NCBI GenBank assembly: GCA_027460525.1
Contig: JAPZAS010000033.1
Coordinates: 1 to 37,340 of the forward strand
Origin: Candidatus Methanoperedens sp.
Lineage (GTDB): Archaea > Halobacteriota > Methanosarcinia > Methanosarcinales > Methanoperedenaceae
Length of the DNA: 37,340 nt
Direction: 5' to 3'
The notes beneath the pieces are model-generated. The model searched no databases. It had not been told where the DNA came from and saw only the letters and a program-made list of their open reading frames with translations. Made by a program: the position numbers and the translations under genes. Of this stretch, positions 18,822-37,340 are shown piece after piece (the stretch's first letter is position 1; each line of letters begins with the position of its first letter).

Positions 18822-21800
18822 ATAACGAACAAAAAAACGGTAATGACAGTGTTATTGTTGACTCTGGCATTTATCCAGGGAGCGTCAGCACATGCTAACC
18901 AAAACGCTGCGTGCGAAAGTTGTCATAAGTACCCATCACAATTTCTAAAAAATACCGTAAGTATATCGTCTATCACGGTTGCTCCGAGTCAAAAATTTTC
19001 TGTCATAAACTGGACAGGAGGAGTGACATCTACGATAAGAGCATACGCTGCAGATGGCAAGGGTACGCAATCAAATACAGGTATGGAAACGGACTATAAA
19101 GATATTATAGTGACGGTTGCAACACCAACGCCAACCATATCACCGGTAATCACAGGCTTTGCTCCGTCTTCACCTGTAAATGATATCGTGGGTGCAACTC
19201 GAACCTTCAACATCACCGTTAACCAGAGTGTGAACGTTACCTGGTATTTCAACGGAACGCAGGTTAAGACAAATACGAGTGTGACTAATGCTGGTTATAC
19301 CAACTCCAGTGGAGTTCATGGTATCTGGAATGTAACAGCCACAGCAACCAATACCAATGGTGTTGTATCAAATGTGTGGATCTGGAACGTGACAGCAGCC
19401 CCGGCAGGAGCACCTAACATAATGAGCTTTGCTCCCTCATCACCAGTCAGCGATACAGCAGGGGCGACAAGGATCTTAAATATCACAGCCAACCGGACTG
19501 TGAACGTGACCTGGTATATCAATGGAACAAATGTTTCGACCAATATCGGTGTGACCGAAGCGAATTACACCAATACCAGTGCAGTTGCAGGATTCTGGAA
19601 CGTAACCGCATTTGCAACCAATGATAACGGCACGGATTCAAAGACATGGCTCTGGAACGTTACTTCTCCACCACCGGGAGCACCCAACATCACTTCATGG
19701 GGCAATAACAAGACAAATGATCAGAGCACGACTTTAACCCTGAACAATAGCGAAGGCATAAGGTTCAATGCCACTGCAAACCAGAGTATAACCACATGGA
19801 ACTGGTTCCAGGACGATGTTAACCAGAACAATAACTTTGACAATTTCTCAACCAACTTCACTGGCGGAACTCATACCATAAAAGTCAATGCAACTAATGG
19901 TAAGGGCGTAAGCAATACTATTACCTGGATTGTTACGGTAACAACTCCAACACCCACTCCAACACCTACCCCAACTCCAACGCCAACCTTAGCACTGGTA
20001 ATTACAGGCTTTGCTCCCTCATTGCCAGTCAGTGATGCAGCAGGGGCGACAAGGATCTTTAATATAACAGCCAACCAGACCGTGAACGTGACCTGGTACA
20101 TCAATGGAACAAATGTTTCGACCAATATCGGTGTGACCGAAGCGAATTACACCAATACCAGTGCAGTTGCAGGATTCTGGAACGTAACCGCGATTGCAGC
20201 CAATGATAACGGCATGGATTCAAAGACATGGCTCTGGAACGTTACTTCTCCACCACCGGGAGCACCCAACATCACTTCATGGGGCAATAACAAGACAAAT
20301 GATCAGAGTACGACTTTAACCCTGAACAATAGCGAAGGCACAAGGTTCAATGCCACTGCAAACCAGAGTATAACCACATGGAACTGGTTCCAGGACGATG
20401 TTAACCAGAACAATAACTTTGACAATTTCTCAACCAGCTTCACTGGCGGAACTCATACCATAAAAGTCAATGCAACTAATGGTAACGGCGTAAGCAATAC
20501 TATTACCTGGATTGTTACGGTAACAACTCCAACACCCACTCCAACACCTACCCCAACTCCAACGCCAACCTTAGCACCGGTAATTACTGGCTTTGCTCCG
20601 TCTTCGCCTGTAAATGATATCTTTGGTGCAACTAGAACATTCAACATTACTGCAAACCAGATCGTGAACGTAACCTGGTATATCAACGGGAGCCAGGTTC
20701 AGACAAATACGAGTGTAACCGATGCCGGTTATACCAGCACCAGTGCAGTCCTTGGCGTATGGAACATAACAGCCACAGCAACCAATACCAATGGTGTTGT
20801 ATCACAGGTGTGGATATGGACCGTGACAGCAGCCCCGACAGGAGCACCTAATATAACCAGTTTTGCTCCGTCTTCGCCTGTAAATGATATCGTGGGTGCA
20901 ACTCCAACCTTTAACATCACCGTTAACCAGAGTGTGAACGTAACCTGGTATATCAACGGGACGCAGGTTCAGACAAATACTAGTGCGACTAATGCCGGTT
21001 ATGCCAACACCAGTGGAGTTCATGGTATCTGGAACATAACAGCCACAGCAACCAATTCCAATGGTGTTGTATCACAGGTGTGGATATGGAACGTGACAGC
21101 AGCACCTGCACCTACACCTACACCTACAACGTCATCATTACCGCCACCAGTGCCTCAGAACCTTGGTTTATATGATACGGGGATAGACCAACTTCAGACC
21201 AACGCAACTAACCAGAATGCGTGCAGACAATGCCATCAAACATCAGGAACAAACGTCAGTGGTGGATACAATAACACCATTGTTGGTGGAGTACCAACAA
21301 GGCATCACATCCTGTTACCAACTCAAAAGATAAATCCATTAACCAAAGCCCCTTTCGGCTGCGGGGATTGTCATCCGTCCAATCCAGGAGTAGGGAATGG
21401 AATATTATTGGACCGAAGCTGTGTAGATTGCCATAATGGGACAAGTTTCTGGGGCGATTCAATCGGCGGACATGTAGGCAATTTCAGTAGACCTCACCAT
21501 GTCGATACATCGAGCGATACCGCAAATATTGGAACACCTGCTGCAAACAGGACGTGCAATTTCTGTCACGGCAGTTTCGTAAACAACTATAACGATGGAC
21601 ATTATAAACCATCTTATGCTACGGGCTTCATGATAACCCCCTTCGCTACCTTTAAAGCAACCAACTTCTCACAACCGGATGGACTTGGTGGCAATAAGGT
21701 ATGGGGAGGTTGTTTATCATGCCATGACCCCAATCCTGCAGCAACGCCAGCAATTGGCAGCAACCACGACAACCATCACAAGGAAATATTGGGTTTTGGC

Positions 21801-22742
21801 GGATTCGGTGGTAAGACTGCATTCCAAAATGCATCGACTCCGGGCGCGGCATGTTTCTGGTGCCATGTAATTGCGTCAGGTGGAACCGATCCATTGAGAA
21901 TCACCGTAAATAATTCATTTACTGGTGAGACTCTCACCAATGCGATGGAAGTTAGGAACTCAACCATTGAAGCAACCGATGTATTTGAACCAGGAACAAC
22001 TAATATCACCTTTAATGGTACAGGCTGCGAGAAATGCCACGGTGTCTCGTCGATCCATAACATCCAGTTTAACTCTGCCCCAGGTGGACAGCAAGGACTT
22101 GGGCATATAAACAATAACACGGATTGCTCTGGTTGTCACAATTCATGGCTGCCTTCATGGTCGCCAGCAGAGACATGGACGCCGGGAGCCCTTGTTCCAT
22201 ATGTGGATAGTGTAAGCCCGTCAGTAATGGCTGCAGGAACTGCTGCTACTCTCACCATCACAGGTTCGAACTTCGTGAATGGTGCCTATTCATCTGTAGT
22301 AACTGTAGATGGAGTGACATATACACCAACATCTATAACAGATTCACAGATAGTGGTTAACATTCCGGCACTCAGTGCAGGAGTCCACACAGTACAACTT
22401 GTGAAAGGCGGCGATACGCTTAGCAAACTGTCGACATTGACTGTTGTGCCAGTGGTCACTTTGTCTTCAGCGACATTGGATGGCGGAACCTTAACTATCT
22501 CCGGAATTGGACTGGGAAATCAACCAGCAACAAATGCTCAGCAATATGTCACTTTCAGTCATGCAGGAATAATCAATTATTCCGCGAGTATCATCAGCTG
22601 GAGCGATACACAGATAGTGGCAACATTATCTGGTTCAGTAGCAGCAGGAGATACGGTAGAAGTGATAACGGCAAACAGTGGACAAGCAACGGCTGCTATT
22701 GTAATACCAACGCCTACACCAACACCCATGCTAAATCAATAA
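18822..22742 (+). CDS. Secreted nine-heme cytochrome with Ig-like repeats and an OmcZ-like octaheme module
   Basis: About 1306 residues. The proposed start is an AUA at 18822; the first ATG is 18843, which would give 1299 residues. The AUA occupies the exact position of the ATG in the duplicated leader of the next cytochrome and adds ITNKKTV, restoring the positive end of the signal peptide. Layout: signal peptide; one heme site CESCH at residue 31; five to seven Ig-like repeats rich in N-x-S/T sequons (about 100-760) with TPTP linkers; a PPPVPQNLGLYD segment; eight CxxCH sites (CRQCH at 801 to CSGCH at 1102); and two IPT/TIG-like domains at the C-terminus. The octaheme part resembles OmcZ. 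A long-stalk surface electron carrier is inferred. Confidence 0.85.
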   Translation: MTNKKTVMTVLLLTLAFIQGASAHANQNAACESCHKYPSQFLKNTVSISSITVAPSQKFSVINWTGGVTSTIRAYAADGKGTQSNTGMETDYKDIIVTVATPTPTISPVITGFAPSSPVNDIVGATRTFNITVNQSVNVTWYFNGTQVKTNTSVTNAGYTNSSGVHGIWNVTATATNTNGVVSNVWIWNVTAAPAGAPNIMSFAPSSPVSDTAGATRILNITANRTVNVTWYINGTNVSTNIGVTEANYTNTSAVAGFWNVTAFATNDNGTDSKTWLWNVTSPPPGAPNITSWGNNKTNDQSTTLTLNNSEGIRFNATANQSITTWNWFQDDVNQNNNFDNFSTNFTGGTHTIKVNATNGKGVSNTITWIVTVTTPTPTPTPTPTPTPTLALVITGFAPSLPVSDAAGATRIFNITANQTVNVTWYINGTNVSTNIGVTEANYTNTSAVAGFWNVTAIAANDNGMDSKTWLWNVTSPPPGAPNITSWGNNKTNDQSTTLTLNNSEGTRFNATANQSITTWNWFQDDVNQNNNFDNFSTSFTGGTHTIKVNATNGNGVSNTITWIVTVTTPTPTPTPTPTPTPTLAPVITGFAPSSPVNDIFGATRTFNITANQIVNVTWYINGSQVQTNTSVTDAGYTSTSAVLGVWNITATATNTNGVVSQVWIWTVTAAPTGAPNITSFAPSSPVNDIVGATPTFNITVNQSVNVTWYINGTQVQTNTSATNAGYANTSGVHGIWNITATATNSNGVVSQVWIWNVTAAPAPTPTPTTSSLPPPVPQNLGLYDTGIDQLQTNATNQNACRQCHQTSGTNVSGGYNNTIVGGVPTRHHILLPTQKINPLTKAPFGCGDCHPSNPGVGNGILLDRSCVDCHNGTSFWGDSIGGHVGNFSRPHHVDTSSDTANIGTPAANRTCNFCHGSFVNNYNDGHYKPSYATGFMITPFATFKATNFSQPDGLGGNKVWGGCLSCHDPNPAATPAIGSNHDNHHKEILGFGGFGGKTAFQNASTPGAACFWCHVIASGGTDPLRITVNNSFTGETLTNAMEVRNSTIEATDVFEPGTTNITFNGTGCEKCHGVSSIHNIQFNSAPGGQQGLGHINNNTDCSGCHNSWLPSWSPAETWTPGALVPYVDSVSPSVMAAGTAATLTITGSNFVNGAYSSVVTVDGVTYTPTSITDSQIVVNIPALSAGVHTVQLVKGGDTLSKLSTLTVVPVVTLSSATLDGGTLTISGIGLGNQPATNAQQYVTFSHAGIINYSASIISWSDTQIVATLSGSVAAGDTVEVITANSGQATAAIVIPTPTPTPMLNQ
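19426..20589 (+). repeat. Tandem 582-bp duplication inside cytochrome gene 1
   Basis: Copy 1 (19426-20007) and copy 2 (20008-20589) are nearly identical. The stretch GGGGCAATAACAAGACAAAT recurs at 19699 and 20281, and GCTTTGCTCC at 19426, 20008 and 20590. The unit is 194 codons and encodes two Ig-like domains plus a TPTP linker, so the reading frame is kept. Confidence 0.9.
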
Positions 22743-23366: not shown

Positions 23367-25223
23367 ATGAAACATTTTAAAAAAATAGTGCCAGCCTTAC
23401 TGCTGTTTGCAGTATTAGTTGGAATAGGAATAGCAGCTATACCGGCACCGCCGGTAAATCAAAACATTGGTTTCCCAGATACAATAATGCAAAATCTGTC
23501 AGTGACCACTTGCAGAGGTTGCCATCCATCGGCTCCTGATATCCACCACTTCATGGTAGGAAAAGGAAATACTCAACTGGGTTGCTCGGATTGTCATCCA
23601 TGGCAAGCGAGTACTCAAACGGTATATATAGAAAGGGATTGTCATGGTTGCCACAATGGAGCACCTGTCGCGCCTAACACAGTAAACCTGTCAGCAATTC
23701 GAGGATCCCCTGGCAGACCGCATCACAATACGATAAAGAATTCATCGTCAAATCTAGCGCTTCCAGCTGCTCATTTGGCTGCAGATAGACAGTGCAATAG
23801 ATGTCACGGTTCTGGTTTTGTAGCCAATTACAACGATAACCATTACGTACCATCCTACAATGTATCGATGGTAACTCCAATGGCCAGTTTCAAGATAAAT
23901 GCCACAGTTGGAGGCGGAAGAGTATGGGGCGGATGTTTAGCTTGCCACGATGCCGATCCAACGGCAAACCCGCAAATCTATAACAGCGATACTACTCACC
24001 ATACCGTGAGATTCTGGGTAGGTTACCAGTGCAACAATTGTCATGTATCATCTGGGTTTAGAGCAGAACCAGTTCCAGACTATAATCCAGAGCCAAGTGC
24101 GGAGAGGTATGAAGTATGGTTGAATCAATCATATCCATCGTACACCTCAATGTTCCAATGGGATACCTCTAAGAAACATTTTGAATTCAGAAATTCAACA
24201 ATGATTAATGCAGGCGATACACTCAACGGTACTGGATGTGAAAAGTGTCACTCTGTACAGACCATACACAATATTGAGGCTAGTGCTCCTGGTTTAACTG
24301 TTCAACAAACCATTGACCAAGGAAAAGCTGGATACGGCCATATAGGAAATAACTCAGACTGCAATGGGTGCCATCAGGGTTGGATGACCAGCGCTGATAA
24401 TCCATTCCCAGGTCCAAAAGCTATGAGTTTGGCGAGTATAGCTCCAGGAGTGTTGACTGCTGGTGTAGCCACAGATGTAACCCTCACAGGCAGCAACTTT
24501 GTGGAAGCTCCATACACGACGACGGTATTAGTAGATGGAGCGGCTGCAACACAGAAGTCTCTGACAGACACACAGATAGTAGTGACAGTGAACCTGGCCG
24601 TAGGCGGCCATAGTGTCCAGGTCGAAAAAGGCGGCGTGACAAGCACACTGACCACAGTGATAGCTATAGCACCGGGTACAATTGCCTCAGCGCAACTGGC
24701 AGACGGAGTCCTGACCATTGATGGTATAGGACTTGGAGCCGGTCAGTCAGCGGTTGCCATTACCAAGGCTGATGGAAGAACCGTATTTTCGGATAGTATC
24801 ACAAGCTCGACCGAAACCCAGACAGTAGCAGCAGCTTCCCTAGCGGCAGTCGGCGACACTGTAAAAGTGGAGACACCAACCGGTGAATCCACAGCAACAA
24901 TCGTAGCTGGAGTAACAGCAACACCAACACCAGTACCAACACCCACACCAACACCAACACCAACACCAGGGCCATCTATCACGTCGGCGACGTTGAAAAA
25001 TGGAGTCTTAACCATTGCTGGTTCAGGGTTTGAAACTAAGCCGTCGAAAAATCCTCAGAACAACATTTGGATTGTCATATCAGGAAAGACCTACTATGCT
25101 AAGAGTATCAAATCTTGGTCTCTTACAACGATAGTAGCAAATGTTCCTACCAACTTCAAAGTAAACCAAATGGTAACAGTGAAAACAGCATCTGGTAAAA
25201 CAGCTACGGCTAAAATCTCGTAA
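23367..25223 (+). CDS. OmcZ-like octaheme c-type cytochrome with IPT/TIG domains
   Basis: A 618-residue secreted protein. The signal peptide MKHFKKIVPALLLFAVLVGIGIA is followed by [17 protein letters not shown], much like the mature start of Geobacter OmcZ as I recall it. There are eight CxxCH sites: CRGCH (C49), CSDCH, CHGCH, CNRCH, CLACH, CNNCH, CEKCH and CNGCH (C332). Many extra histidines, including HH pairs, could give bis-His ligation. OmcZ-like landmarks are [23 protein letters not shown] and [15 protein letters not shown]. From residue 350 come two IPT/TIG-like beta domains, a TPTP linker (about 515-535) and a third beta domain. Residues about 26-505 are nearly duplicated in cytochrome 4. 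Confidence 0.88.
   Translation: MKHFKKIVPALLLFAVLVGIGIAAIPAPPVNQNIGFPDTIMQNLSVTTCRGCHPSAPDIHHFMVGKGNTQLGCSDCHPWQASTQTVYIERDCHGCHNGAPVAPNTVNLSAIRGSPGRPHHNTIKNSSSNLALPAAHLAADRQCNRCHGSGFVANYNDNHYVPSYNVSMVTPMASFKINATVGGGRVWGGCLACHDADPTANPQIYNSDTTHHTVRFWVGYQCNNCHVSSGFRAEPVPDYNPEPSAERYEVWLNQSYPSYTSMFQWDTSKKHFEFRNSTMINAGDTLNGTGCEKCHSVQTIHNIEASAPGLTVQQTIDQGKAGYGHIGNNSDCNGCHQGWMTSADNPFPGPKAMSLASIAPGVLTAGVATDVTLTGSNFVEAPYTTTVLVDGAAATQKSLTDTQIVVTVNLAVGGHSVQVEKGGVTSTLTTVIAIAPGTIASAQLADGVLTIDGIGLGAGQSAVAITKADGRTVFSDSITSSTETQTVAAASLAAVGDTVKVETPTGESTATIVAGVTATPTPVPTPTPTPTPTPGPSITSATLKNGVLTIAGSGFETKPSKNPQNNIWIVISGKTYYAKSIKSWSLTTIVANVPTNFKVNQMVTVKTASGKTATAKIS
23442..24886 (+). repeat. 1.45-kb octaheme/TIG segment, copy A (copy B at 29570-31014)
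   Basis: This segment aligns with 29570-31014 at a constant offset of 6128 bases, with no net insertion or deletion. In the first ~335 encoded residues (PPVNQ to IAPG) I count 13 amino-acid differences. Divergence rises in the second TIG domain. It is a recent duplication or a pair kept similar by gene conversion. Confidence 0.9.
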
Positions 25224-25291: not shown

Positions 25292-25352
25292 CTATTCATG
25301 TCAGAAAATGGAGAAATTGGGAGACTGCAGAAAAACAAGGGATGAAAATTTT

Positions 25353-26762
25353 ATGGATAAGGATAGGAAACATCATCTAATAATATATTATGTAATACCA
25401 GGTATAGTATTCATTACTCTCATAAGTTTAGCATTTGCGCTACCTCCAGTACCCCAAAGAATGGGAGTCTATGATACATTATTTGTCACTTATCAAGAGA
25501 GCACTTGCAGAGGTTGCCACGCATCAGGTGTACCTGACACGCATCATAACCTTGTAGCGAACAATACTATAAATCGGTACACAAGTCAGCCATTTCAATG
25601 TAAAGATTGTCACCCTGTTCTTCCAGATGGGACTGGTATTACAATGGTTAGGAATTGTTTACAATGCCATAATAATACCTTTAACGGGATGAATATTCGA
25701 AGACCGCATCACGAAACACAAGCTGCAACGGTTGGACATTGTCGAGCCTGTCATGGAAGTCTGGTAGATAATATTGACGATGGACACTATATAGCTACTT
25801 CCCCACTATCCAATTTGACACCCAGTACAACTTTTAAAGTAATCAATCTAACAAGTGGCAGGAAATGGGGTGGTTGTGAATCATGTCATGAACAGGATTT
25901 GACAGCCACTCCTTTCATAGCAAGTAATAATAAGACACATCACAACTTAGGAAATTTGAGCGGATTCAAGAATAACGATGTTACAAGATGTGTAATTTGC
26001 CATGGAAATCATGATGGTACATACGGACCTGATTCTATAAGATATTGTGAACGATGTCATGGTATAAATGCCATACATAATATTCAGTGGGACATTGCCA
26101 ATACATCTTCGCAGTCAGGCTTTGGTCATCTTGGACCAAATGATTGCCAAGGTTGTCATGCATGGTATGTAGCAGGCAGTTTAGCACCAGGATCTGACCT
26201 TATCGTACCTACTATTGACCACCTTAGTACAAATCAGGCACTTATAGGAGAACAGACAGAATTGACCCTCCATGGAGAAAACTTTGTGACAACAGTTAAT
26301 GGTATCACTCGATCATCAATTGTAGCCCTTACAAAAGGAGTTATTAAAAACGGAACAACTACAACTAATATTACAATAATTCCGACTAGTATAACCCCAT
26401 ATCAAATTGTTGTAACGATACCACCAATGAATAAAGGTTTGTACGCAATATATGTTTTAAAAGATGGAAATGCAGAAAGTAATAAAAGACCATTTGTAGT
26501 TGGGCCGGAAGTCATCGTCAACTCTGCTCTAATTAATTCTACGACAGTTACGATCAATGGTTCAGGATTTGGAACATACAATCCTGCATATAACAATTGG
26601 ACAAATGTGACGATCAATAGCGGAACTACGTTCCGTTCCGTACAAGTTACAAATTGGTCAGAAACGTCTATTATTGTCACGAGTCCAGATGCAACGATTG
26701 GAGATACAACAACAGTCAATAGCATTTATGGTACCAATTCCACACAGGTCACAGGAGAATAA
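25353..26762 (+). CDS. OmcZ-like octaheme c-type cytochrome (shortest, OmcZ-sized)
   Basis: A 469-residue secreted protein, close in size to the Geobacter OmcZ precursor. The frame opens at 25308, but I start at the ATG at 25353, which gives MDKDRKHHLIIYYVIPGIVF as signal anchor or peptide. After PPVPQRMGVYD there are eight CxxCH sites: CRGCH (C52), CKDCH, CLQCH, CRACH, CESCH, CVICH, CERCH and CQGCH (C265). OmcZ landmarks include IDDGHYIATSPLSNLTP, INAIHNIQWD and GFGHLGPNDCQGCH. Residues about 285-469 form two IPT/TIG-like domains without hemes. It is followed after 6 bases by a subtilase gene, matching the OmcZ/OzpA pairing. It is the best candidate for the wire-forming subunit (inference). 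Confidence 0.88.
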   Translation: MDKDRKHHLIIYYVIPGIVFITLISLAFALPPVPQRMGVYDTLFVTYQESTCRGCHASGVPDTHHNLVANNTINRYTSQPFQCKDCHPVLPDGTGITMVRNCLQCHNNTFNGMNIRRPHHETQAATVGHCRACHGSLVDNIDDGHYIATSPLSNLTPSTTFKVINLTSGRKWGGCESCHEQDLTATPFIASNNKTHHNLGNLSGFKNNDVTRCVICHGNHDGTYGPDSIRYCERCHGINAIHNIQWDIANTSSQSGFGHLGPNDCQGCHAWYVAGSLAPGSDLIVPTIDHLSTNQALIGEQTELTLHGENFVTTVNGITRSSIVALTKGVIKNGTTTTNITIIPTSITPYQIVVTIPPMNKGLYAIYVLKDGNAESNKRPFVVGPEVIVNSALINSTTVTINGSGFGTYNPAYNNWTNVTINSGTTFRSVQVTNWSETSIIVTSPDATIGDTTTVNSIYGTNSTQVTGE

Positions 26763-26768
26763 AATAAT

Positions 26769-28637
26769 ATGAAAATGCCACAAAAAGGTAAAGTGGTTCT
26801 GAATGTGGCTCTATCTACCTGTGCTATTATCATTATTTTAAGCGGAATGGCACTTGCAGCAGATCGTGACGTTATAATTGGTTATCATAAGCCTGTTGTT
26901 GGAGTTTCAGCAAAGGAATTGGTCGTCCAAAGTCATAGCGGTAAGGTGAAAAAAGATTTTCATCTGATAAATGCAGTCTCGGCAAGAATACCTGAAGACA
27001 AAATCGAAGAGATCAAAAAAGATCCTAGAGTTGCCTATATAGTAAATGACACTATTTTCAGGATGACAGATGAATATTCCAGTTCCTGGGGGGTCCAGTA
27101 TATCGGTAGTGAGCCCGTACATAACCAAAGTATCAATGGAACTGGAGTAAAAATAGCTGTACTCGATACAGGAATCGACTATAACCATCCAGACTTGGCT
27201 GGAAATTATAAAGGCGGATACGATTTTGTCAACAACTATCCAGATCCACGGGACGACAATTGTCTATCATATTATAAGACTTGTCACGGGACACATGTTT
27301 CCGGTATTATAGCTGCAGAACATAATGGTATTGGAGTTGTAGGAGTAGCGCCTGGGGCAAGTATATATGCAGTCAAAGTCCTGGACGGAGGCGGTTTTGG
27401 TGATGCCAGTTGGATCATATCTGGCATAGAATGGGCGAAAGACAATGGGATGAATATCATTTCCATGAGCTTTGGAAGTACTGAAAATAATACTGCTGTG
27501 CTCGATGCGGTTAATTCCGCATATGATTCTGGCGTATTATTAGTTGCAGCGGGAGGAAATACAAATGGACGCCCTGTTTTATATCCTGCGGGATACGATT
27601 CTGTTATTGCTGTGACGGCTATAGATCAGAATGGTCAGAATGCAAGTTTCTCTCCAAAAGATCAGAAGATTGAAGTTGCTGCACCCGGGGTAAATATAAA
27701 TTCTACGGTACAGGGTGGATATGGTATTTTGAGCGGAACATCTATGGCGGCTCCGCATGTGACAGGTGTAGCGGCTCTCATATTTTCAACAAATTTTCCT
27801 GATGTCAATGGTGATGGAAAAAGAGATAATAAAGATGTCAGGCAGATAATTGATAGTACAGCGTTTGATGCAGGAATTCCAGGCAAGGATGATATATACG
27901 GATATGGTATAGTAGATGCATCTAAAGCCCTTCTTGGAACTTCGGCATCTGCTTATGCTTCGGCATCTGCTAATGCTGACCTGTCGATAACTGAAGATGA
28001 AGCTGTATCCAATATCATTGCAGGAGACGGGAAGACCTATACTTATATTATTACTGTAAAGAACAACGGTCCTTCGGATGCCTCAGGTGTACAAGTATTT
28101 GATACGTGGCCCAGCGGATTTATCCGGGGTCCTGTTACATCATCTCAAGGAACTTGTGATACAGCGATTAACTTTACCTGCGATCTGGGAACTATGTCAA
28201 GAGATGGCACGGCAAATATCAATGTCAGTTATACAGTACCAAATACAACCATAGGAAACTACACAAATAGAGTTGAAGTAAAATCGACCAGTGCTGACAA
28301 TGATGTGAGCAACAATATAGCTGAGGATAAAAATATTGTTGAAATCATATTAAATCTCGTCGTTAAGGAACGTTCATCAAGTAAAAATGCGAAGCAAGTT
28401 TCCCTTTTAAAAGGAGACTATTCAATAACCATAACAAATAGCAAACTATCAGAAATTGATGTGAATGTCTATGAAAATGGTGTACTTAGAAAGGATCTAT
28501 CCTCCAAATATAAACTCAAAAAATCACAGGTTGTAAATTTCAATATGAATATTGAATCACCCAAACTTGATTTTGTGTTTATTCCAAATGGAGATAAAGG
28601 ATCGACAGGAACAATAACAAACATGAGGTCATCATGA
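26769..28637 (+). CDS. Secreted subtilisin-like serine protease (S8) with DUF11-like domain; possible OzpA counterpart
   Basis: A 622-residue exported protease. Order: signal peptide (to about residue 34, SGMALAA); an I9-type propeptide ([20 protein letters not shown]); the S8 domain with catalytic Asp in [14 protein letters not shown], His in [10 protein letters not shown], oxyanion Asn in VAAGGNTNG and Ser in [16 protein letters not shown]; then a DUF11-like beta domain ([20 protein letters not shown]) and a beta-rich tail. The usual GHGTHV reads CHGTHV here, with a second Cys seven residues earlier (possible disulfide). It lies between two octaheme genes and overlaps the next by ATGA. Cleaving the TIG tails of its neighbours is inferred from OzpA, which is needed for OmcZ maturation. 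Confidence 0.92.
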
Positions 28638-31039
28638 AAAACAAAAATATGAAAAAATACAGAATATTGAGACAAAGTGTAAGAATCTCGATTATATTTT
28701 GCTCAATATTATTGTCTATTAATGCAGCAAGTGCTGTAGATAAAACGTACAACTGGGATGATAAAACTGGAGTTTCTATAGCAGGTTTTGCTACCAACTG
28801 GAGCAGTTGCAGTCCTCAAGATGGATACAGGGTAACCAGTCTTAAAAGTTCAGCATCATCCTGTACCAACGGCATATTGAGCAGATCAAATGCAGGCGAT
28901 TTGTTCCTGGCGATTAATACAACAGCATATGGTTCTAATACCAATTTAGTAGGCAAAGGCGGAAACTATTTTTATTTATCAAGTAATAAATCCAGCTATA
29001 CTGCGATATTTCGTTTTGATGTGGGGTATGCTCAAGCAGGCACTTTTACATCATTGGGAAATGTGACCAAGAGTGTAACTTCTTCTACTGGTCAAAAAAT
29101 TGGCGTAGATTTGAAAACCATAAAAGGCACTGCACCTGCAGGTTCATATCCAGCACTAAAAGTCTCAGTCACCACTTCAAATGGAGGAAAAGTGAGTCTG
29201 GGAACAAATGGTGGAGCTAGTGGTACAAACAGCGGTCGTTTCACGGTTACAGAAACTGTTGCACCGGCTACCCCAACTCCAACACCAACTCCAACTTCAA
29301 CACCTACTCCAACACCGACTTCAACACCTGCTCCAACACCGACTCCAACTCCAACTGCAACACCGACTCCAACTCCGACTTCAACACCCACCCCAACACC
29401 AACTTCAACACCCACCCCAACACCGACTTCAACACCTACTCCAACACCTACTCCAACTCCAACTGCAACACCTACTCCAACTCCGACTTCAACACCCACC
29501 CCAACACCAACTTCAACACCTACTCCAACTCCGACTCCACCTCCGGGTCCTACCCTAACTCCAACTCACCCGGCACCGCCGGTAAATCAAAACATTGGTT
29601 TCCCAGATACAATAATGCAAAATCTGTCAGTGACCACTTGCAGAGGTTGCCATCCATCGGCTCCTGATATCCACCACTTCATGGTAGGAAAAGCAAACAC
29701 AAAACTGGGTTGCTTGGATTGTCATCCATGGCAAGCTAGTACTCAAACGGTATATATAGAAAGGAATTGTCATGGTTGCCACAATGGAGCACCTGTCGCG
29801 CCTAACACAGTAAACCTGTCAGCAATTCGAGGATCCCCTGGCAGACCGCATCACAATACGATAAAGAATTCATCGTCAAATCTAGCGTTTCCAGCTGCTT
29901 ATTTGGCTGCAGATAGACAGTGCAATAGATGTCACGGTTCTGGTTTTGTAGCCAATTACAACGATAATCATTACGTACCATCCTACAATGTATCCATGGT
30001 AACTCCATTTGCCAGTTTCAAGATAAATGCCACAGTTGGAGGCGGAAGAAATTGGGGCGGATGTTTAGCTTGCCATGATGCCGATCCAACGGCAAACCCA
30101 CAAATCTATAACAGCGATACTACTCACCATACCGTGAGATTCTGGGTAGGTTACCAGTGCAACAATTGTCATGTATCATCTGGGTTTAGAGCAGAACCAG
30201 TTCCAGACTATAATCCAGAGCCAAGTGCGGAGAGGTATGAAGTATGGTTGAATCAATCATATCCATCGTACACCTCAATGTTCCAATGGGATACCTCCAA
30301 GCCACATTTTGAATTCAGAAATTCAACAATGATTAATGCGGGCGATACACTCAACGGTACTGGATGTGAAAAGTGTCACTCTGTACAGACCATACACAAT
30401 ATTGAGGCTAATGCTCCTGGTTTAACTGTTCAACAAACCATTGACCAAGGAATTGCTGGATACGGCCATATAGGAAATAACTCAGACTGCGCTGGGTGCC
30501 ATCAGGGCTGGTTTACCAGCGCTGATAATCCATTCCCAGGTCCAAAAGCTATGAGTTTGGCGAGTATAGCTCCAGGCACGTTGACTGCTGGTGTAGACAC
30601 AGATGTAACCCTCACAGGCAGCAACTTTGTAGAAGCTCCATACACGACGACGATATTAGTAGATGGAGTAGCTGCAACACAGAAGTCTCTGACAGATACA
30701 CAGATAGTAGTGACTGTGAACCTGGCCGTAGGCGGCCATAGTGTCCAGGTCGAAAAAGGTGGCGTGACAAGCACACTGACCTCAGTGTTAGCTTTAGCAC
30801 CAGGTACAATTACTTCAGCGAAATTAACAGCTGGAGTATTGACCATTGATGGTACAGGACTTGGAGCTGATCAGCAGATGATTGCCATTACCAAGGCTGA
30901 TGGAAGAATCATACCGTCTGATGGTATCACCAGCTCTACCGATACGCAGATAGTAGCGGTAAGTGCGCAAGCGGCAGTCGGCGACACGGTAACTGTGATA
31001 ACACCAACCGGTGACAATTCTGCACTGGTCACGAATTGA
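28634..31039 (+). CDS. OmcZ-like octaheme cytochrome fused to a novel N-terminal domain by a Pro/Thr linker
   Basis: An 801-residue secreted protein. The signal peptide runs from [12 protein letters not shown] to INAASA. Next comes a beta-rich domain of about 170 residues ([20 protein letters not shown] to [10 protein letters not shown]) with two cysteines and no recognised family. [13 protein letters not shown] linker of about 100 residues follows, then [13 protein letters not shown] and eight CxxCH sites (CRGCH at C336 to CAGCH at C619), then two IPT/TIG-like domains. The heme part is nearly identical to cytochrome 2. It overlaps the subtilase stop by four bases, so it is translated from the same operon. 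It looks like a domain-shuffled paralogue; the N-terminal domain may give cell-surface or partner binding. Confidence 0.88.
29268..29569 (+). repeat. Pro/Thr-coding low-complexity repeat (linker of cytochrome 4)
   Basis: About 300 bases of CCAACTCCGACTTCAACACC-like repeats encode [12 protein letters not shown]. Units are multiples of three and imperfect. The opposite strand reads as an artificial VGVGVG frame. Confidence 0.9.
29570..31014 (+). repeat. 1.45-kb octaheme/TIG segment, copy B
   Basis: Partner of the segment at 23442-24886, colinear at an offset of 6128 bases. In this copy the segment is placed behind the novel domain and linker. The upstream similarity boundary falls exactly at CCGGCACCGCCGGT, that is PAPPV. 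Confidence 0.9.
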
Positions 31040-31050
31040 AGGAGGTTATC

Positions 31051-31938
31051 ATGAAATATAAAAATATGAAAAAATATAGAATATTGAGACAAAGTGTAAT
31101 AATCTCGATTATATTTTTCTCAATATTATTTTCCGTTAATGCGGCAAGTGCTGTCGATAAAACGTACTACTGGATCCCATCGTCAGGAGCTATAGATTCG
31201 TCAGGATTTACAGCCAACTGGGGGATATGTGGTGCTCAACCAGCATCATACAAAAATACTACTCTCAGCAGTAAAGGATTCACATGTAACAGCGATACAT
31301 TGACAAGGACTTCATCCGGAGACCAGTTTTTGGCAATTTATCCAACCCCATATAGTTCTGATACTAAAATAGTAGGCAAACCAGGTGCTACTTTTTATTT
31401 ATCAAGTCCTGCGACATATCGTTTTGATCTGGGTTATGCTAAAGGAGGCACTTTTACATCATTGGGATATGTGACCAATGGTGTAACTAAAAGTACAAAA
31501 TATAGCATAGATCTGAGAAAAATTAATGGCACTGCTCCTGCGGGTTCATATCCAGCATTAAAAGTCTCAGTTACGACTCCAAAAGGAGGAAAAGTGAGTC
31601 TGGGAACAAATGGTGGGTCTACAGGCTCAAATAGCGGCCGTTTCTATGTTAATGAGACTGTTGCATCACCGACCCCAGCTCCAATCCCGACTCCAACAGC
31701 AACACCTACCCCGACTCCGACAGCAACACCTACCCCGACTCCAACAGCAACACCTACCCCGACCCCGACAGCAACACCTACCCCAACTCCGACAGCAACA
31801 CCTACCCCGACTCCAACAGCAACACCTACCCCGATTCCAACAGCAACACCTACCCCGATTCCAACAGCAACACCTACCCCGACTCCGACTCCACCTCCGG
31901 GTCCTTATTGTCTAGCTTGTCATGCTGGTGCAGAATAG
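31051..31938 (+). CDS. Secreted novel-domain protein with Pro/Thr tail and a single C-terminal heme site
   Basis: A 295-residue protein. The start is the ATG at 31051, five bases after GGAGG; a longer TTG start at 31036 is less likely. The signal peptide and the ~170-residue domain ([19 protein letters not shown] to [10 protein letters not shown]) are paralogous to the N-terminus of cytochrome 4 and keep its two cysteines. A TATPTPTP repeat (about residues 207-285) then leads to [15 protein letters not shown], one CxxCH heme site six residues before the stop. It is either a real monoheme surface protein or an octaheme gene cut short by rearrangement. It lies 11 bases after cytochrome 4 in the same operon. 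Confidence 0.8.
31696..31887 (+). repeat. Eight-copy 24-bp tandem repeat encoding TATPTPTP-type units
   Basis: Eight units of ACAGCAACACCTACCCCGAC plus four bases, with point variants (ACT/ATT, CCG/CCA), encode a Thr/Pro/Ala stalk. Period and near-identity suggest recent slippage. Confidence 0.9.
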
Positions 31939-32737: not shown

Positions 32738-35700
32738 ATGAAAAATGACAGGAGGTTGATAGTGATTTTTACGGTTTTGCTGGTGAGTATTAGCCAATAC
32801 ACTTTAGCGTCAGCGTATCCTTCTTATAATACAGAAACAGATTGCAGAAGTTGTCACGGTAATACAGTAGACACGCATCATCATCTGGTACATTATGGAA
32901 AAAAGGTGTGTACAGATTGTCATGCAATCAAAAATAACACAGTTGTGATAATTAGAAATTGTCTAATATGTCACCCTGGTACAAATCATGAGGGCTGCAT
33001 TTCATGCCATATAAGCGGCACCCCTGGAAATGTTAATAGTACAGCTCCTGGGCTATTGAATAGTACACCCCCTGGAAATGTTAATAGTACAGCCTTCTCT
33101 CTGGGTGTTCATGTCAATATTACGACCGATGGATTTGGTTTAATAAATAACAGCGATTGCTGGGCATGCCACTATAATCGGGATATGCATAGAAGCAATA
33201 TATGGCAGTGCGCAGACTGCCATACAGGCAGCGGCAGACCCGAAACTCCGCAAGCACCAAAAGTTCGCACGCATTATTTGCCTTCTGTCACTAACTATTC
33301 ATGTGTGGATTGTCACAGTAAAGTCACAGCAAATCCCGGGACAGGTATCCCCAATATAACTTCTCATTATGCACAGAGACCTACAGTACCGACAACGAAC
33401 TACTGTGCTTATTGCCATGGTCCCAATGCGACCTCTCCATTCCAGGCTCTGAACAGGACGATTACGGAGTTCAAGCACGATGACCCAAATTGGAATGGCA
33501 ATGCTACTTGCAGAACATGCCATTCAAATTCCAGTGTGTCAGCCGATCCGCTGGCTAAGGATAAATCTTCATTCCATGACATGAGCTGGGAATTGGGAGA
33601 TGCATATAATGGAACAATGAAAGCAGATTGTATTATCTGCCATATCGCCAAGGATCCTCAATTTGTTTTGGCTCCCAATCCTTCACATAATACGACGGGA
33701 ATGAACATTTCAACGTGTTATTTATGCCATGGAACTGGACCAGGCACGAAACCTCAAAAACTTCATAGCGTTGTAGGGGCCGGGGGACCGGACTGTATAT
33801 CATGCCATTATATTGGCAGTGCATTCCATAACATCGATACAACAGCCATAAACCTGAGTGTTCATGCAGGTATGAACAGCCAGAACGCATCGAATGCGGG
33901 AGTTGCTTCAATCAACGGTGCTTGCTGGGGATGTCATGATACTGATGGTAACATCAGTAACAATCCAAGCAACCAGGGAATGGGTGATATCTTCAACACA
34001 CCCAAGAAATGCGATGATTGTCATCTCTCCTCAGGTCAATATTATACTCAAACCCTCGCATGGGGAGGATTACAGGTAGCTCAGCATTACTATGGCGGCA
34101 CCACTATCAAAGCCGGCAATTCAAGTTCCAACATCTCTTCATGCATAAATTGTCATGAGAACGTAAGCGAGATGCTCCTTCCGAATAACGATACTGATAC
34201 CGGTTCATTCCCCGGTGACGGAGTAAGGCTCAATGGCGGGAACAGGAGTTTCTATCATTACGGTAAGAAACGACCCGAGTTACGGATCGGTTCGAACGAG
34301 AATTGTCCCTACTGCCACCAGAACTCCACAACCGCCTTCTCAAACGTGATGCAGAATGCAGGCAACTCGATGTTAGGTAACCATACCTCAGACGTGGTTT
34401 TTACTTTTCCTGCTCATCCTGCTGGTCTCCCAAGCTGTACACGTTGCCACGGGCAGGATATACTGCATGGAGCGAATATCTCCAAGCCTGTTCCAAATTC
34501 TGATTTTTGCCTTAAATGTCATAGTAATGACAGGCTTAAAAAAGACAGGCATAATGGTAAGGTCGAATGCATCAGATGCCATACAGAGAAACCTTCAGAT
34601 GTTCATAATATTAAATATATATTACCAGACGGGAGCTATCGTGGCATAAATGCAACATCATGCGGAGATTGTCATGACTTTAGCCTCCAGCTCCCTGCTT
34701 TTAGATTACCGTTTTTAGCTGTCAACTGCACCACCTGCCACCAGAATAGTGGGCTTGCAAAATTTTCTGAAGCACCGATCATACCTACGCCAGTGAAACA
34801 CAGTGCCAACCCTAATTCAGGAGCATTATGGAATGGTTCGCAACAAGCCTACTGGGACAATGCTGCTCAGCTGAGTTCATGCATCTACTGCCATGGAAAT
34901 GCCACCCACGCATCGAAAGCACTTGGAAAAATTGAGAATATTAGATCCGGAAACATGCCTAACCAGAGCATAACCAATACAAGCTACTGGTGCGCCAACT
35001 GCCATTATAATAAGAGCAATCCGGCAGGAAACTACTCATATAATGGCACTTCCTACTCTCCGGTACCTCCGGAAATACAGAACATGACAGGTCTGGTACC
35101 CGCAATGGCCAACGATAACACTACGTTCTTCAACCACTCCCTTGATGTGTGGTCTGATAGTATATGCGTCCAGTGCCATGGTAGCTCCTCTCCATCCACG
35201 ACTGCTTATTTTGTTCACAGCATCATCCCAGCCAGAGGGGGGCCGGACTGCATCTCATGCCATAATGTGAACGCAATGGGTGCGCCACTGGATAAAAGGA
35301 TAAATTTTTCAGCTTTCAAGGAAGGCGTACACAGGAACCTCAACAGCTTTGCGATGAACAACACATCGCTTTCAGATACCGCGGATAAAGCCTGCTGGGC
35401 ATGCCATGGAAATGCGACTGAGCCTGTCGGCGGGCATCCATTAAATTACAAAACTCCAAAAACCTGTAACAACAACAACTGCCATTCACTCTCACAATCC
35501 CCCTATAACGAGCCTATGGTCTATTCGCATTTCCAGAATGCAAGCCTGAACGGCAATCCGAACAATGGTACGAATTATAATATAACCACTTCAATACAAT
35601 GCCAGATCTGCCATATAAACAGTGTGGTGATAACGGATAACCACCCGCAACTGGCTCTTGTATCACATTACGCGACAAAAGATAATTTAATTGATTCCTT

Positions 35701-37340
35701 CAACTGCACCTATTGCCATATGGTTAAAAACAATAGTGAAGTCTGGGGGAATGCAACGTTAATATACAAGAACACAACCTCCCTTGTTGAACTTGAAAAA
35801 GAACGAAACAAACTGACAGCTTATGAGGGAGAGAGCATATACCTCGGTGATGGATATTCCATGAAAGTGGTGCAGATCTCCACGGAAAGGAGCGAGGCTT
35901 TAATCCAGCTTTTCAAAAACTATGGTATTGTAGATGAGTTCTCACTTCTTGTTGGCGTTCCTTATAACTATGAGGAATATATTACTATCGACAATGGAAC
36001 GTTCAGAACGCCCATTATTATATTGAATATGACCTCCATCTTCAAAGGCGCAAGCCAAAGCCTCATTAAGTTCAGTGGATTCAGGACAGCAAGAGTCCAT
36101 GCAGAAACCAATAGCACTTCATGCCTTGCCTGTCATCTGTACCGGTATTCCCCGGAAAAAGGACGGTATCTGGTCATCGACAGGGATGTCAAAGATAACC
36201 CCAATCATGATATAGTATATTACACCAATGTACTCGTTGATTTCGTATCTGAAAATAAAAGTAAGATATACTATAATAACGATGATTATGTTTTAAGCCA
36301 GATCAATACCAATTTTGGGAAATTTCTTCCCTCACCCACATCACAGAAATATCTAACCGAGGGGGAAACGTGGAACATTGGAGAGAACGTCTCATTGAAG
36401 CTTAATGGCGTCAGTACTGACAGCAAACAGGCATTGCTGGCTTTAATGATTAACAACAGCGTTGTCCAGGACTGGGCAGTTACCAGCGGGTCTGAGTTTA
36501 ATTACACGCGTGCACTCAGATATAAAGGATACGAAGATACCAATGTAACGGTTTTCAGCGCAAACCTTGCGTCGGTTGCCCAGGCAAATCCAAATTTCAT
36601 ATTACTTAAGAACGTTGTGGCGATTTCACCATCGATAAGGCAAACAACCGCCAACACCACAGTTTTTGGATTTAATAGCAGCTGGCTTTTCCCCAATGAT
36701 ACGTTTATAGTGGGGAAAGTCCCGGAGAATTTCCACGCACCTAACCTGTATACCGATCAAAGAGCGTGGGCTGATTGTGTTAAGTGCCATGATACCTCAA
36801 GAAAACTTAATATTCCAAATGTTGATGCTGTTTCATCAAGATTGGGAAAGCACTACAGGTTGAACATTAATGCCTCCGTTAAAACCCTTTTGTCGGATTC
36901 GATTGATAAAGCATGCTGGGCATGCCACACGTTGGATGGGCAGGAGCCGCAGGCGCATATTCCAACCTATGTTACACCAAGATATTGCAAATCCTGTCAC
37001 GTCTATCAGGAGAATCCAAATTTTGGGGCAATAAATATCAGCGATGAGCCTCACGCATCCGAACAGAACTGCCCGACCTGCCACATCCAGAATTCCCATA
37101 CTCTGGTCAGGTTTGATGTATCTCCTGTGATAAATAAAATTTCATTATCTAAAACTAAGGTAAGCAGGAATGAAACAGTTAAGCTGGTGGCTGAAGCAAT
37201 CGCTGGCTATAAATTCAAAATAAGAGCTGCTGAATATTTCCTGGATAAAATAGGCACATCTGGAAACGGGAGGCCTCTTAAACCGGTCGATGGGAAATTT
37301 GATTCGCAAATGAAAAACGTAACTTCGGATATCAATATAA
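32738..37340 (+). CDS. Giant S-layer-domain multiheme c-type cytochrome (partial, runs off the window)
   Basis: At least 1534 codons, open at the window end. The signal peptide is MKNDRRLIVIFTVLLVSISQ followed by YTLASA. I count 33 CxxCH sites plus one CX4CH (CNNNNCH, residue 910). Two non-heme blocks, about residues 1030-1120 (EGESIYLGDGYSMKVVQIS, with IILNMTSIFKGASQSLIKF) and 1204-1315 (EGETWNIGENVSLKLNGV), resemble the two halves of the archaeal S-layer family duplication domain. Heme clusters lie before, between and after them. Such fusions in ANME archaea are proposed to pass electrons through the S-layer. I chose the ATG at 32738 for its basic signal-peptide end; a GTG at 32762, six bases after AGGAGG, is an alternative. 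N-x-S/T sequons are abundant. Confidence 0.93.
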   Translation, partial: MKNDRRLIVIFTVLLVSISQYTLASAYPSYNTETDCRSCHGNTVDTHHHLVHYGKKVCTDCHAIKNNTVVIIRNCLICHPGTNHEGCISCHISGTPGNVNSTAPGLLNSTPPGNVNSTAFSLGVHVNITTDGFGLINNSDCWACHYNRDMHRSNIWQCADCHTGSGRPETPQAPKVRTHYLPSVTNYSCVDCHSKVTANPGTGIPNITSHYAQRPTVPTTNYCAYCHGPNATSPFQALNRTITEFKHDDPNWNGNATCRTCHSNSSVSADPLAKDKSSFHDMSWELGDAYNGTMKADCIICHIAKDPQFVLAPNPSHNTTGMNISTCYLCHGTGPGTKPQKLHSVVGAGGPDCISCHYIGSAFHNIDTTAINLSVHAGMNSQNASNAGVASINGACWGCHDTDGNISNNPSNQGMGDIFNTPKKCDDCHLSSGQYYTQTLAWGGLQVAQHYYGGTTIKAGNSSSNISSCINCHENVSEMLLPNNDTDTGSFPGDGVRLNGGNRSFYHYGKKRPELRIGSNENCPYCHQNSTTAFSNVMQNAGNSMLGNHTSDVVFTFPAHPAGLPSCTRCHGQDILHGANISKPVPNSDFCLKCHSNDRLKKDRHNGKVECIRCHTEKPSDVHNIKYILPDGSYRGINATSCGDCHDFSLQLPAFRLPFLAVNCTTCHQNSGLAKFSEAPIIPTPVKHSANPNSGALWNGSQQAYWDNAAQLSSCIYCHGNATHASKALGKIENIRSGNMPNQSITNTSYWCANCHYNKSNPAGNYSYNGTSYSPVPPEIQNMTGLVPAMANDNTTFFNHSLDVWSDSICVQCHGSSSPSTTAYFVHSIIPARGGPDCISCHNVNAMGAPLDKRINFSAFKEGVHRNLNSFAMNNTSLSDTADKACWACHGNATEPVGGHPLNYKTPKTCNNNNCHSLSQSPYNEPMVYSHFQNASLNGNPNNGTNYNITTSIQCQICHINSVVITDNHPQLALVSHYATKDNLIDSFNCTYCHMVKNNSEVWGNATLIYKNTTSLVELEKERNKLTAYEGESIYLGDGYSMKVVQISTERSEALIQLFKNYGIVDEFSLLVGVPYNYEEYITIDNGTFRTPIIILNMTSIFKGASQSLIKFSGFRTARVHAETNSTSCLACHLYRYSPEKGRYLVIDRDVKDNPNHDIVYYTNVLVDFVSENKSKIYYNNDDYVLSQINTNFGKFLPSPTSQKYLTEGETWNIGENVSLKLNGVSTDSKQALLALMINNSVVQDWAVTSGSEFNYTRALRYKGYEDTNVTVFSANLASVAQANPNFILLKNVVAISPSIRQTTANTTVFGFNSSWLFPNDTFIVGKVPENFHAPNLYTDQRAWADCVKCHDTSRKLNIPNVDAVSSRLGKHYRLNINASVKTLLSDSIDKACWACHTLDGQEPQAHIPTYVTPRYCKSCHVYQENPNFGAINISDEPHASEQNCPTCHIQNSHTLVRFDVSPVINKISLSKTKVSRNETVKLVAEAIAGYKFKIRAAEYFLDKIGTSGNGRPLKPVDGKFDSQMKNVTSDINI

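Follow-up and report, generated by a model that had tools for sequence, protein, structure and literature searches.

The final 1534 codons of the window, by which we mean the entire contig C33 analysed here (37,340 bases), encode what is, judging by sequence, an exported multiheme cytochrome of Methanoperedens (ANME-2d) of the published 'ANME MHC-A' kind. S-layer multiheme cytochromes are as such already known. The size of 34 hemes and the linkage of this S-layer cytochrome to OmcZ genes are not secure, and we posit that the 34-heme, OmcZ-linked frame is, with somewhat better than even probability, an assembly chimera or a collapsed repeat. The features on which this reading is built are listed in Table 1.

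Table 1. Features of the window, in order of position
Feature	Position	Strand	Remarks
OmcZ-like octaheme module, C-terminal to repeated domains with PT-rich linkers	18843..22742	+	
OmcZ-like octaheme cytochrome, C-terminal Ig/TIG domain	23367..25223	+	
OmcZ-like octaheme cytochrome	25308..26762	+	Geobacter OmcZ 8d9m match, E 3.5e-58
Subtilase (S8), I9 propeptide	26769..28637	+	OzpA-like by position
OmcZ-like octaheme module after ~200-aa domain and PT-rich linker	28634..31039	+	OmcZ part 94% DNA-identical to 23367-25223
Short protein, ~200-aa domain and PT-rich linker as in 28634..31039, one heme motif, stop	31036..31938	+	67% over 236 aa to start of the 37-heme G030 protein
Multiheme cytochrome open frame	32738..37340	+	1534 codons, 34 heme motifs, signal peptide-like N-terminal segment
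N-terminal segment, aa 2-84, first heme motifs	32741..32989	+	52-61% identity to N-terminus of 5-heme proteins, OmcZ clusters of G001 and G022
Module i, aa 85-330	32990..33727	+	58-67% identity to part of 640-925 aa cytochromes, no S-layer match found there
Module ii, aa 345-520	33770..34297	+	61-73% identity to cassette of long paralogues (G016, G022, G012, G027)
Module iii, aa 524-820, canonical MHC-A middle	34307..35197	+	53-67% identity among the 23-heme relatives, about 28-39% elsewhere among paralogues
Stretch of 189 bases, 100% identical to end of same-genome contig C4	34308..34496	+	doubtful joint
Module iv: last pre-S-layer hemes, S-layer domain, C-terminal heme group	35270..37339	+	sequence comparison
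S-layer domain, first subdomain (PF07752)	35708..36079	+	Pfam, fold match; aa 991-1114
Single heme motif CLACH, linker between S-layer subdomains	36122..36136	+	aa 1129
S-layer domain, second subdomain	36308..36640	+	aa 1191-1301; alone below Pfam cut-off; also covered by NCBIfam TIGR01567 match
C-terminal group of four heme motifs, past the S-layer domain	36776..37084	+	motif count

An S-layer multiheme cytochrome at the contig end

The sequence-only reading had counted 33 CxxCH motifs and one CX4CH motif in 1534 stop-free codons, and our recount gave exactly these numbers. The CX4CH motif (CNNNNCH) lies at residue 910 and is heme 27 in the count from the N- to the C-terminus. All cysteines of the protein (68 of 68) fall inside heme motifs, and shuffled proteins of equal composition contained on average 0.15 CxxCH motifs (maximum 2 in 500 trials), against the 33 observed. 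A search of the PDB sequences with the 1534-residue protein (P0001) returned no match. As in the family, MHC-A would be exported and would carry one heme c per CxxCH or CX4CH motif, attached by the Ccm system.

The S-layer/cytochrome fusion, likewise proposed from sequence alone together with a Pfam search for PF07752, is borne out by several lines of evidence. That search gave 49.9 bits versus a cut-off of 30, split over two stretches, and NCBIfam concurs. A profile of the S-layer region finds Methanosarcina MA0829 (3u2g) by sequence (E 2.9e-4), and a structure model of the window cytochrome matches the same protein by fold (E 1.8e-6). This AlphaFold model covers only residues 985-1534, lacks the hemes and is poor overall (mean pLDDT 46.9); its two beta-rich subdomains are of fair quality and match 3u2g. 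The linker CxxCH between the subdomains is present in all eight aligned sequences. Pfam detected neither a peptidase M6-like (type B) nor a pectin lyase-like (type C) N-terminus in the 1534 residues.

The architecture, with a two-subdomain PF07752, a linker heme and heme groups on both sides, is that of ANME MHC type A, for which Chadwick et al. (2022; PMC9012536) described the linker heme and proposed the carriage of electrons through the S-layer. Type A proteins contain 20-80 hemes (PMC9012536), compared with 34 in the window and 23 in the canonical Methanoperedens MHC-A. In Methanoperedens on electrodes, up-regulation was seen for an S-layer cytochrome that has 23 heme motifs (PMC10874420). 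While intact relatives end in a C-terminal helix, the C-terminus is missing here, the frame running off the contig end; relatives end about 70 residues beyond the point that matches the end of C33, with a membrane helix. A C-terminal hydrophobic segment with basic residues was found in the 12 relatives examined, more weakly in L004, L005 and L009. By analogy with the family, the two S-layer subdomains and the heme of their linker would seat MHC-A in the coat, with a heme in the plane of the S-layer; in this species, the membrane anchor may be a helix at the C-terminus, past the window. A further difference from type A lies at the other end: the relatives searched yielded no back half of this kind preceded by the N-terminal part of the window frame, and the joint between the two is doubtful.

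Mosaic structure of the frame

The relatives belong to Methanoperedens and the family around it. When the protein was scanned in 60-residue steps, its nearest relative switched sharply along its length. Residues 1-520, with 15 hemes, resemble cytochromes without the window's back half, and residues 524 onwards correspond to the canonical 23-heme MHC-A. The first 84 residues resemble proteins of the G001 and G022 OmcZ clusters, so that the front of the gene suits a position next to OmcZ genes. Module i is closest to L065/L084 and L086-L088, relatives in which PF07752 was not matched (Pfam run on L084 only), and module ii to L040, L041 and L017. For module iv (aa 845-1534) the nearest sequences are the LFW-280_4 and G015 genes, the DNA at 35406-37337 being 89.7% identical to the LFW-280_4 gene (L003).

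Every high-scoring module ii in the relatives precedes a non-canonical module (about 28-39% identity to module iii), and none of the module-ii genes read joins module ii to a canonical module iii. Module shuffling is common in the S-layer cytochrome family, and at least two other junctions of the window frame (module i to ii, and that behind the N-terminal 84 residues) are also unmatched, with no sign of an assembly break. Two contigs of other genomes, G014:C71 (L045) and G015:C363 (L037), start inside S-layer cytochrome genes, at aa 500 and aa 834, about where the window's gene passes from one cassette to the next and changes its nearest relative. The largest frame seen, on G007:C49 (part in L063), has 5615 residues with repeated heme-cassette matches and an S-layer-type end.

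A doubtful joint with contig C4

Module ii gives way to module iii exactly at the 189 bases shared with contig C4. C4 and C33 diverge upstream of this stretch, and the identity and the divergence together place the continuity of the frame at 34308-34496 in doubt. On C4 (113 kb) a canonical MHC-A gene begins; its start is intact, it has a signal-like segment, and its hemes show the canonical spacing. Its 6 hemes and the remaining 17 of the window sum to 23, with the CX4CH motif at heme 16, the pattern of all 17 canonical relatives tabulated, a set that includes genomes fetched twice and hence fewer independent genomes. These relatives have genes of 1174-1226 residues with 22 CxxCH motifs and one CX4CH motif, and their S-layer domain was confirmed wherever tested. 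The window frame, with 34 hemes and the CX4CH motif at 27, departs from this pattern.

Gene for gene, the region behind MHC-A on C4 corresponds to the LFW-280_4 (L003) locus (75-93% identity between the proteins), and the flanking DNA is 78-83% identical; the cytochrome at this locus is the one that shares 89.7% DNA identity with the end of the window. A second copy of the back half was sought in the assembly of the same genome and none was found. The 23-heme sum, the synteny of C4, the single copy and the order of the modules argue that the back half belongs at least to the C4 gene. Judging by the mosaic, the C4 overlap, the heme sum and the C4 synteny, we consider the joint at 34308-34496 most likely artificial. 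The back two thirds, from about residue 524, would then be the Methanoperedens 'ANME MHC-A' cytochrome, the front third would belong to another cytochrome adjoining the OmcZ set, and the 34-heme frame would have arisen where the assembly joined or collapsed the two genes at the identical stretch. Two counterpoints apply. Since assemblers join only sequences seen to overlap, the OmcZ-side gene probably has a stretch in common with MHC-A at the joint. This common stretch could extend as far as the C33 terminus, in which case both copies would be real and the halt of C33 close to the end of the gene would be accounted for.

C19 was weighed as a possible extension of C33 and rejected: at 149-202 (G000:C19:1-202, L023) it encodes 18 residues similar to the MHC-A C-terminal tail, but the 148 bases ahead of them, with which the contig starts, are unrelated. 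To locate the 3' end, homologues of the genes that follow in L003 and G015 were looked for in the window's own genome; they flank no fitting contig end. GC and GC3 shift gradually along the gene, leaving the 34308 joint unmarked.

The 34-heme gene may nevertheless be real, the OmcZ-side cytochrome having gained the MHC-A middle and the S-layer half by recent gene conversion or duplication, a scenario that we regard as possible but rather doubtful. The frame stays open across every module junction from 32738 to 37340. Natural long S-layer paralogues with 28-40 hemes exist in the relatives, the window holds a second near-identical duplication (the OmcZ modules, 94% DNA identity), and the ends of both contigs would be accounted for if a repeat began at 34308 and ran on to the end of C33. 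In that case the genome would contain a pair of S-layer conduits almost identical in their back halves, with one linked to the nanowire genes, which we likewise deem possible rather than probable. Against this stand the assembly with its single back half, the absence of any transition from module ii to a canonical module iii in the module-ii genes read, the lack of any comparable front-to-back match in 33 other family genomes, and the placement of OmcZ clusters and MHC-A genes on separate contigs in the relatives examined (G001, G005, G016, G022 and G030). The long S-layer cytochromes of G016 (28 hemes, 1510 aa) and G022 (40 hemes, 1959 aa) resemble the window frame in placing module ii ahead of an S-layer half and end in a C-terminal helix; they differ in having another middle module in place of the canonical module iii, and the surrounding contig stretches read contain no OmcZ-like gene. 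A real 34-heme S-layer cytochrome, formed by recent gene conversion onto an OmcZ-cluster cytochrome and uniting conduit and nanowire genes in one locus, can be entertained only tentatively.

A single ordinary MHC-A gene with a long, lineage-specific N-terminus, the C4 piece being a degenerate or strain-variant fragment, appears very improbable. It would agree with the one back half in the assembly and with the variable N-termini at the MHC-A locus, where L003 also differs (16 hemes in all), but it is at odds with the exact match over 189 bases and with a C4 gene whose start, signal-like segment and heme spacing are intact on a 113-kb contig syntenic with LFW-280_4.

The OmcZ and subtilase neighbourhood

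We return to the favoured explanation, a joined or collapsed pair of genes, for the surroundings of the front third. Upstream lie four OmcZ-like octaheme modules (18843, 23367, 25308 and 28634) and a subtilase (26769). Geobacter OmcZ (PDB 7lq5, 8d9m) is a homologue of the octaheme proteins, which may form filaments. The set is like the OmcZ/OzpA clusters of Methanoperedens and Borgs (PMC10874420, PMC11208441) in its OmcZ-like octaheme proteins, C-terminal Ig/TIG domain and adjacent subtilase, and in the large cytochromes that follow in the same orientation. Its counterpart in G030 consists of OmcZ-like genes, a subtilase and proteins with 37 and 15 hemes, counts that equal those reported by Ouboter et al. 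(PMC10874420) for the Methanoperedens cluster of OmcZ, OzpA and two cytochromes. The 37-heme G030 protein gave no PF07752 match, whereas in the window, provided that it is correctly assembled, the cytochrome that follows has an S-layer domain.

The sequence-only reading had linked the giant cytochrome to an OmcZ-like set. The OmcZ-like neighbours hold up by homology; one 34-heme S-layer protein adjoining them is not secure, because the back half completes the 23-heme C4 gene at another, syntenic locus. Nor is the linkage, which had been singled out as the point of interest, new in kind, since OmcZ homologues adjoining giant cytochromes are already published for ANME-2a/b (PMC9012536) and the OmcZ cluster with large cytochromes for Methanoperedens (PMC10874420).

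Two consecutive genes at 28634-31938 begin with the same domain of about 200 residues and PT-rich linker, one leading into an OmcZ module and the other halting after one heme; the simple-repeat linker may be another assembly joint. In other genomes, OmcZ modules are fused behind 13-23 further hemes (L076:2885-7252 in G001, L081:8837-13369 in G005 and L073:1489-4566 in G030), with totals of 29, 31 and at least 21 hemes, respectively; the G001 fusion is located in the interior of a 721-kb contig. Such proteins are possible filament bases or branching units.

Implications

The main practical lesson is one of caution: when metagenomes are assembled, repeated heme cassettes can cause distinct cytochrome genes to be joined or collapsed, and proof at the level of reads is therefore needed for record heme counts and for fusions. 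S-layer cytochromes have been proposed as the exit route of electrons from anaerobic methane oxidisers. Electrons would pass from menaquinol- or methanophenazine-linked cytochromes through the coat to OmcZ filaments, minerals or other outer acceptors. If true, the link to OmcZ genes would support a single path from the coat to the nanowire.
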